This document shows, piece after piece, positions 1,697 to 1,831 of a DNA stretch of 64,000 bases (its first letter is position 1; each line of letters starts with the position of its first letter). The DNA is from Candidatus Woesearchaeota archaeon. GTDB lineage: Archaea > Nanobdellota > Nanobdellia > Woesearchaeales > UBA10216. Under the pieces are notes generated by a model, which was not told the origin of the DNA, did no database searches, and saw only the letters and a list, made by a program, of their open reading frames with translations. The stretch covers positions 1 through 64,000 of the forward strand of contig JACPTF010000011.1 of assembly GCA_016192915.1 (NCBI GenBank). Direction: 5' to 3'. Both the position numbers and the translations under genes were made by a program.

Positions 1697-1831
1697 GCCG
1701 GCGTCGTCTAACGGAAGGACGGGAGGTTCACACCCTCCTTGTGTGGGCTCAAATCTCCTATGTGGGTGAGAACCAAATCGCTGATGCGATTGGTCCCGTC
1801 GCAGTAAGCGACGTGGCTCCCACCGCCGGCG
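1697..1831 (+). tRNA. tRNA-Val(CAC), interrupted in the T arm
   Basis: The acceptor strands GCCGGCG (1697-1703) and CGCCGGC (1824-1830) pair perfectly. The D arm is 1706-1720. The anticodon stem GGAGG/CCTCC (1722-1726, 1734-1738) closes the loop TTCACAC, giving anticodon CAC, valine. The T stem is GTGGG (1743-1747) with CCCAC (1819-1823), and the T loop starts CTCAAAT (1748-1754). About 64 extra bases (near 1755-1818) separate the two sides of the T arm. Without them the tRNA is about 71 nt. No CCA is encoded, and the base after the acceptor stem is G, where valine tRNAs usually have A. It may be intron-containing or a disrupted gene. Confidence 0.7.
1755..1818 (+). repeat. Structured insertion / putative intron in the tRNA T arm
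   Basis: This extra segment folds strongly by itself. ACCAAATCGC (1772-1781) pairs with GCGATTGGT (1786-1794) around a TGAT loop, with one bulged base. CGTCGC (1797-1802) pairs perfectly with GCGACG (1808-1813) around AGTAA. A second GTGGG copy (1762-1766) can pair with CCCAC (1819-1823) and would enclose both hairpins. This outer-stem-plus-two-hairpins plan is the same as in the elements near 3444-3511 and 46169-46226. Exact splice boundaries are ambiguous by a few bases, and I could not confirm a bulge-helix-bulge splice motif. Confidence 0.5.

Follow-up and report, generated by a model that had tools for sequence, protein, structure and literature searches.

At positions 1697-1831 (+) of the window, that is the whole stretch of 64,000 nucleotides analysed here, there is a tRNA gene with the anticodon CAC, located on contig C9 of a 1.2-Mb genome of 92.9% completeness whose argG protein shares 84-95% identity with its counterpart in groundwater Candidatus Woesearchaeota MAGs. 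ARAGORN called no tRNA on the unspliced window and the Rfam tRNA model gave only a partial match of 20 bits, because 64 nt (1754-1817, +) split the T loop between tRNA positions 59 and 60. When these 64 nt were deleted in silico a complete cloverleaf of 71 nt was obtained, which ARAGORN called tRNA-Val(cac), with 7/7 pairs in the acceptor stem and 5/5 in the T stem (12/12 taken together). Exon 1 (1697-1753, +), which could be read directly, contains the anticodon and the first T-stem strand (GTGGG, 1743-1747) and ends with A59; exon 2 (1818-1831, +) consists of T60, the second T-stem strand CCCAC (1819-1823), CGCCGGC and G73. All exon stems are unbroken. An earlier sequence-only reading of this DNA had described a complete tRNA body with a T arm split by about 64 extra bases, and this description was accurate. 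Its assignment to tRNA-Val(CAC) holds for the anticodon and for the ARAGORN call, but the isotype is uncertain because of G73; the acceptor strand is GCCGGCG, whereas A73 and acceptors of the form GGGCYY are seen in the genome's ordinary tRNA-Val genes. The same reading had proposed to look for another tRNA-Val(CAC): an ordinary one with A73 does exist, and it also has a T-loop intron at 59/60.

Several features of the surroundings should be mentioned. Class II tRNAs with G73 and tRNA-Ser features but with the non-Ser anticodons GAA, GAT, CCT, CTC, CAC, AAC and CAG were recognized in this genome (L008, L009, L010, L020, L061, L063, L064, L083) and in relatives (L088, L089). Upstream of the gene, at 1627-1660 (+), there is a partial copy of its D arm and anticodon arm with the same anticodon loop (BLAST, 80% over 34 nt). 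Similar partial copies, matching the adjacent tRNA and at most about 100 nt from it, occur in several genera (L064, L085, L088, L089, L206, L006, L014), the one at L206 spanning the anticodon stem to the variable arm; such copies are possibly scars of element integration. Further upstream of the locus, at 1566-1593 (+), stands a genus-specific promoter-like motif, TGGACA..TGCCCRGC..GGTATTTAA. In the form CACTGGACACTGGACANNTGCCCGGCNAGGGTATTTAA it has 16 sites in this genome and none in the backward control, and it is also found ahead of homing-endonuclease-like ORFs and other genes.

The 64-nt insert is nested: a 19-nt T-loop intron of the bulge-helix-bulge (BHB) type holds a 45-nt module of two hairpins in its 3' bulge. 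The outer helix of the BHB is the T stem itself (GTGGG/CCCAC), and the central helix is formed by CTCA of the exon strand (1748-1751, +) with TGAG of the intron strand (1767-1770, +), pairing 4/4. The 5' bulge AAT (1752-1754, +) is 3 nt long, with a cut predicted after 1753 from the mature T loop. The nucleotides of the 3' bulge (A1771, C1817, T1818) are all present and are separated by the module (1772-1816, +), which spares the exons, the T stem and the central helix. A BHB motif, which the sequence-only reading had suggested looking for, was found. In the minimum-energy fold of the isolated T arm (-32.8 kcal/mol) the first GTGGG makes the T stem, the BHB is formed and the module hairpins lie in the 3' bulge. 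In the whole-transcript fold the second GTGGG pairs with CCCAC (z = -2.5), so the pairing of a duplicated GTGGG around both hairpins, as formerly suggested, is seen in the full transcript but not in the isolated arm. A BHB in which the second GTGGG pairs with exon 2 was considered and dropped, since the outer helix of a BHB has to join the two exons, and the CTCA/TGAG model fits the relatives. The insert gave no match to a group I or group II catalytic core in Rfam, and 64 nt is too short for such an intron.

The intron without the module could be recognized in the relatives. In G017, a member of another genus of the same family, tRNA-Val(GAC) has a 20-nt T-loop insert with a textbook BHB (outer helix GTGGG/CCCAC, central helix TTCG/CGAA, 3-nt bulges), and element-free BHB introns at 59/60 occur both in the same genus and in other genera of the family; in these element-free relatives the 3-nt bulges are strictly present at both splice sites. 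We have catalogued 59/60 introns in 18 genes of seven genomes. Spliced at this site all 18 became tRNAs for ARAGORN, compared with 5 of 18 unspliced, and in 15 of them the intron strand pairs with T-loop bases 54-57 at 3-4 of the 4 positions and leaves a 3' bulge of exactly 3 nt; according to our calculation, full pairing of a given 4-mer with TTCA (G-U allowed) is expected by chance about once in 64. This genome has such introns in no fewer than 13 genes (nine catalogued, three more, and the ordinary tRNA-Val(CAC)), several of which were missed or weakly scored by the Rfam tRNA model; the earlier opinion that T-arm introns are uncommon does not apply here. Introns at 59/60 are common in Thermoproteales. 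T-arm introns are known in archaea in general; for intron length a range of 11-129 nt has been cited (PMC3218864, 2011). Most likely the gene inherited an older, ordinary BHB intron of the archaeal kind, into which the mobile module came later. A shared ancient intron, which the sequence-only reading had named as evidence against its proposal, thus exists in the relatives for the BHB intron and not for the element; the idea that the intron itself is the element is to be modified in the same sense, as the element lies inside a separate intron.

The module (ACCAAATCGC..GTGG, 1772-1816) is defined by BLAST copies, by a covariance model and by the empty intron of a congener. According to the folds and the covariance model it consists of hairpin 1 (1772-1794, +), with a bulged A and the loop TGAT, and hairpin 2 (1795-1816, +), with a bulged T and the loop AGTAA, both loops being those reported previously. 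BLAST with the hairpin pair found further copies, 83-87% identical, both elsewhere in the genome and among the congeners, with E values down to 1.2e-8. The covariance model was built from 21 copies, among them those at 3444 and 46169, whose scores are therefore not independent (39.8 bits for the intergenic copy at 3447-3502, +). Both have the bulged A in hairpin 1 and the bulged T in hairpin 2, in agreement with the common architecture noticed before. The second copy (46169-46226) was misaligned in the alignment but retained in the model, where hairpin 2 is slightly blurred; it lies inside a UPF0047 gene (46120-46395, -), the domain match of which ends at the module start and covers only profile positions 1-47 of 117. 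With this model at least 127 matches were counted in this genome, in at least 77 places, the latter being a lower bound because not all candidates were scored. Each of the eight genomes of the genus has 10-95 matches. Outside the genus, G010 had 27, G014 had 3 and G008 had 1; G017 had none, and neither had the genomes sampled from the order's other families. When 279 genomes of the phylum were examined, only one genome not belonging to the family was matched, and only once. In G017, free of modules, the closest homologous tRNAs carry the short intron.

Compensatory changes across the copies are pronounced (covariation 0.216, against 0.081 for shuffles and at most 0.080 for slid controls). This conservation of pairing would also suit hairpins that are a structured, functional part of the intron, for example an RNA guide or a splicing aid, instead of a mobile element. 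However, Rfam recognized no known RNA family in the insert or the module, stop-free modules are found inside the genes of AspRS, IleRS, Trm1, a DnaG-like protein and an SNase (the domain matches run across the module in AspRS, IleRS, Trm1 and SNase) as well as in spacers, and in a congener the orthologous intron lacks the module, so that such a function appears most improbable. The insert does contain a member of a palindromic family, and the connection of such elements with tRNA introns that was proposed at the outset is borne out. A second type of palindrome, TGACCTTTTT..AAAAAGGTCAATCAAAAA, was observed in anticodon-loop introns and spacers (L007, L012, L081, L082, L084), and it sometimes encloses a nested two-hairpin module.

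Three pairs of empty and filled sites show, by comparison of the sequences, that the module moves. The tRNA-Leu(GAG) gene has a 17-nt BHB intron without module in G004 (same locus), G005 and G006, and in this genome it has the same intron plus one 45-nt insertion between TGAAA and CTCCC; to explain the pair, a target duplication of at most 1 nt suffices. In the IleRS gene a module of 51 nt stands in frame between GAGA and AG in this genome and is absent in 6 congeners. The tRNA-Leu(CAG) gene is intronless in this genome and in G005, and in G006 and G004 it contains the module exactly between A59 and T60. Additionally, comparison of G005 with this genome revealed a further module nested in the hairpin 2 loop, in the intron of another tRNA. 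The flanks of other copies suggest a preference for GAA, GAAA or GAGA on the left side of the target. In the tRNA-Leu(GAG) and IleRS pairs the module is bounded by CC(C) on one side and GG(G) on the other, and the REP-type end tags GTAG or CGTC are absent. A Y1 (IS200/IS605) transposase as the present mover was considered and rejected: no Y1 transposase was found in this genome (92.9% complete), G001, G005 or G006, all of them rich in modules, and the few present in other relatives do not track the number of modules.

The tRNA-Leu(CAG) pair could also be read in another way, namely that the module itself is the intron, which targets the T-loop TTCAAA, is excised without a BHB and creates new tRNA introns. 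The exact position of the module at A59/T60 fits this, but the filled genes have a degenerate 5' acceptor strand and hence a broken acceptor stem, and the intron of the window tRNA has a separate BHB; we regard this explanation as very unlikely. A wider proposal, which we put forward tentatively and consider rather doubtful, is that a genus-level module family prefers GA/CA-rich AAA targets including the T-loop TTCAAA, and might insert at 59/60 of intronless tRNAs and there found or enlarge introns together with the splicing endonuclease, alongside an RPE-like in-frame insertion into essential proteins. If this were true, tRNA introns would be gained by a route that is still active.

Our preferred model for the window tRNA is that a mobile module of about 45 nt, probably moving as DNA, was inserted into the 3' bulge of an inherited T-loop BHB intron (A59/T60), after a GA-rich target and with no evident duplication of the target. 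Once transcribed, the module would form its two hairpins and leave the junction nucleotides A, C and T and the central helix undisturbed; therefore cleavage at 59/60 by the tRNA splicing endonuclease most likely still takes place and removes the whole 64 nt, and RtcB-type ligation would restore a normal T loop. The BHB intron would thus be a safe harbour for the module, and we consider this model as a whole quite probable. A gene for the splicing endonuclease is present (C1:143582), its closest PDB match is the Nanoarchaeum alpha subunit, and it is the only subunit type found in the genome. Homomeric splicing endonucleases are usually strict in their substrate, which speaks against splicing. 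The splicing endonucleases from Nanoarchaea and Crenarchaea, in general, are broad in their specificity (PMC12397907). Against splicing it also counts that with the module the 3' bulge is no longer a plain one of 3 nt and that the whole-transcript fold prefers the second GTGGG.

A different explanation is that the insertion has killed the tRNA, leaving a recent pseudogene from which the module is not removed. The window gene could be dispensable, because the second, ordinary tRNA-Val(CAC) exists, and the decay of the tRNA-Leu(CAG) genes of G004 and G006, which have the module at 59/60 and no BHB, points in the same direction. On the other hand, the exon stems and the BHB pairing of the window tRNA are intact. 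Furthermore, module-loaded T-loop introns of 91 and 206 nt are present in the genome's tRNA-Val(GAC) and tRNA-Val(UAC), respectively, and no further genes for the anticodons GAC and UAC were found in this incomplete assembly (92.9%), for which reason T-loop introns that contain modules are very probably spliced in the cell. The tRNA-Val(UAC) gene (L067, G000:C15) also has a 49-nt anticodon intron, and its 206-nt intron contains several palindromic elements. A pseudogene therefore seems unlikely to us, although less so than the other alternatives. With regard to the safe harbour, the decayed tRNAs that have the module at 59/60 but no BHB fit its prediction, and they probably go back to a single event; the BHB-bearing, module-filled tRNA-Leu(GAG) of this genome is a counter-case, since it is damaged too and has lost its 5' acceptor strand.

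The window intron resembles the non-canonical BHB introns of archaea in its position at 59/60, its 4-bp central helix, its 3-nt 5' bulge (the element-free relatives have 3-nt bulges at both splice sites) and the exact restoration of the T loop on removal; it differs in the mobile module in the 3' bulge, in the woesearchaeotal host and in the lengths of the group, which reach 206 nt compared with the cited 11-129 nt. REPs have been described in tRNA synthetase genes, and the gene for a tRNA pseudouridine synthase contains the palindromic element RPE-1 (PMC3733652). Like the Rickettsia palindromic elements (RPEs) of Ogata and Claverie and intragenic REPs, the module is short, dispersed, palindromic and lineage-restricted, and is found in frame in conserved protein genes and in spacers. 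Unlike RPEs it is archaeal, has two hairpins with a bulged A and a bulged T, and also occurs in tRNA introns, the likeness being one of features. In the mobile-element model of tRNA disruption in Caldiarchaeum, a 1.8-kb element coding for a recombinase is involved (PMC3293823). There too mobile DNA is tied to tRNA introns and a tRNA fragment lies upstream of the intron-bearing gene, but here the element is a non-coding module of 45 nt inside a pre-existing intron. The open-access literature yielded no case of palindromic elements of archaea that lie within tRNA introns or within protein genes.

Since the same module stands in frame in tRNA synthetases, the family is an archaeal counterpart of the Rickettsia palindromic elements. 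The origin and growth of tRNA introns are open questions, and reviews have called for snapshots of insertion (PMC4033280). In one genus the stages coexist: the intronless T loop, the short BHB intron, the BHB intron holding a single module, the BHB intron holding nested ones, and the module alone at 59/60. The module family thereby opens tests of target choice, of splicing tolerance and of mobilisation.
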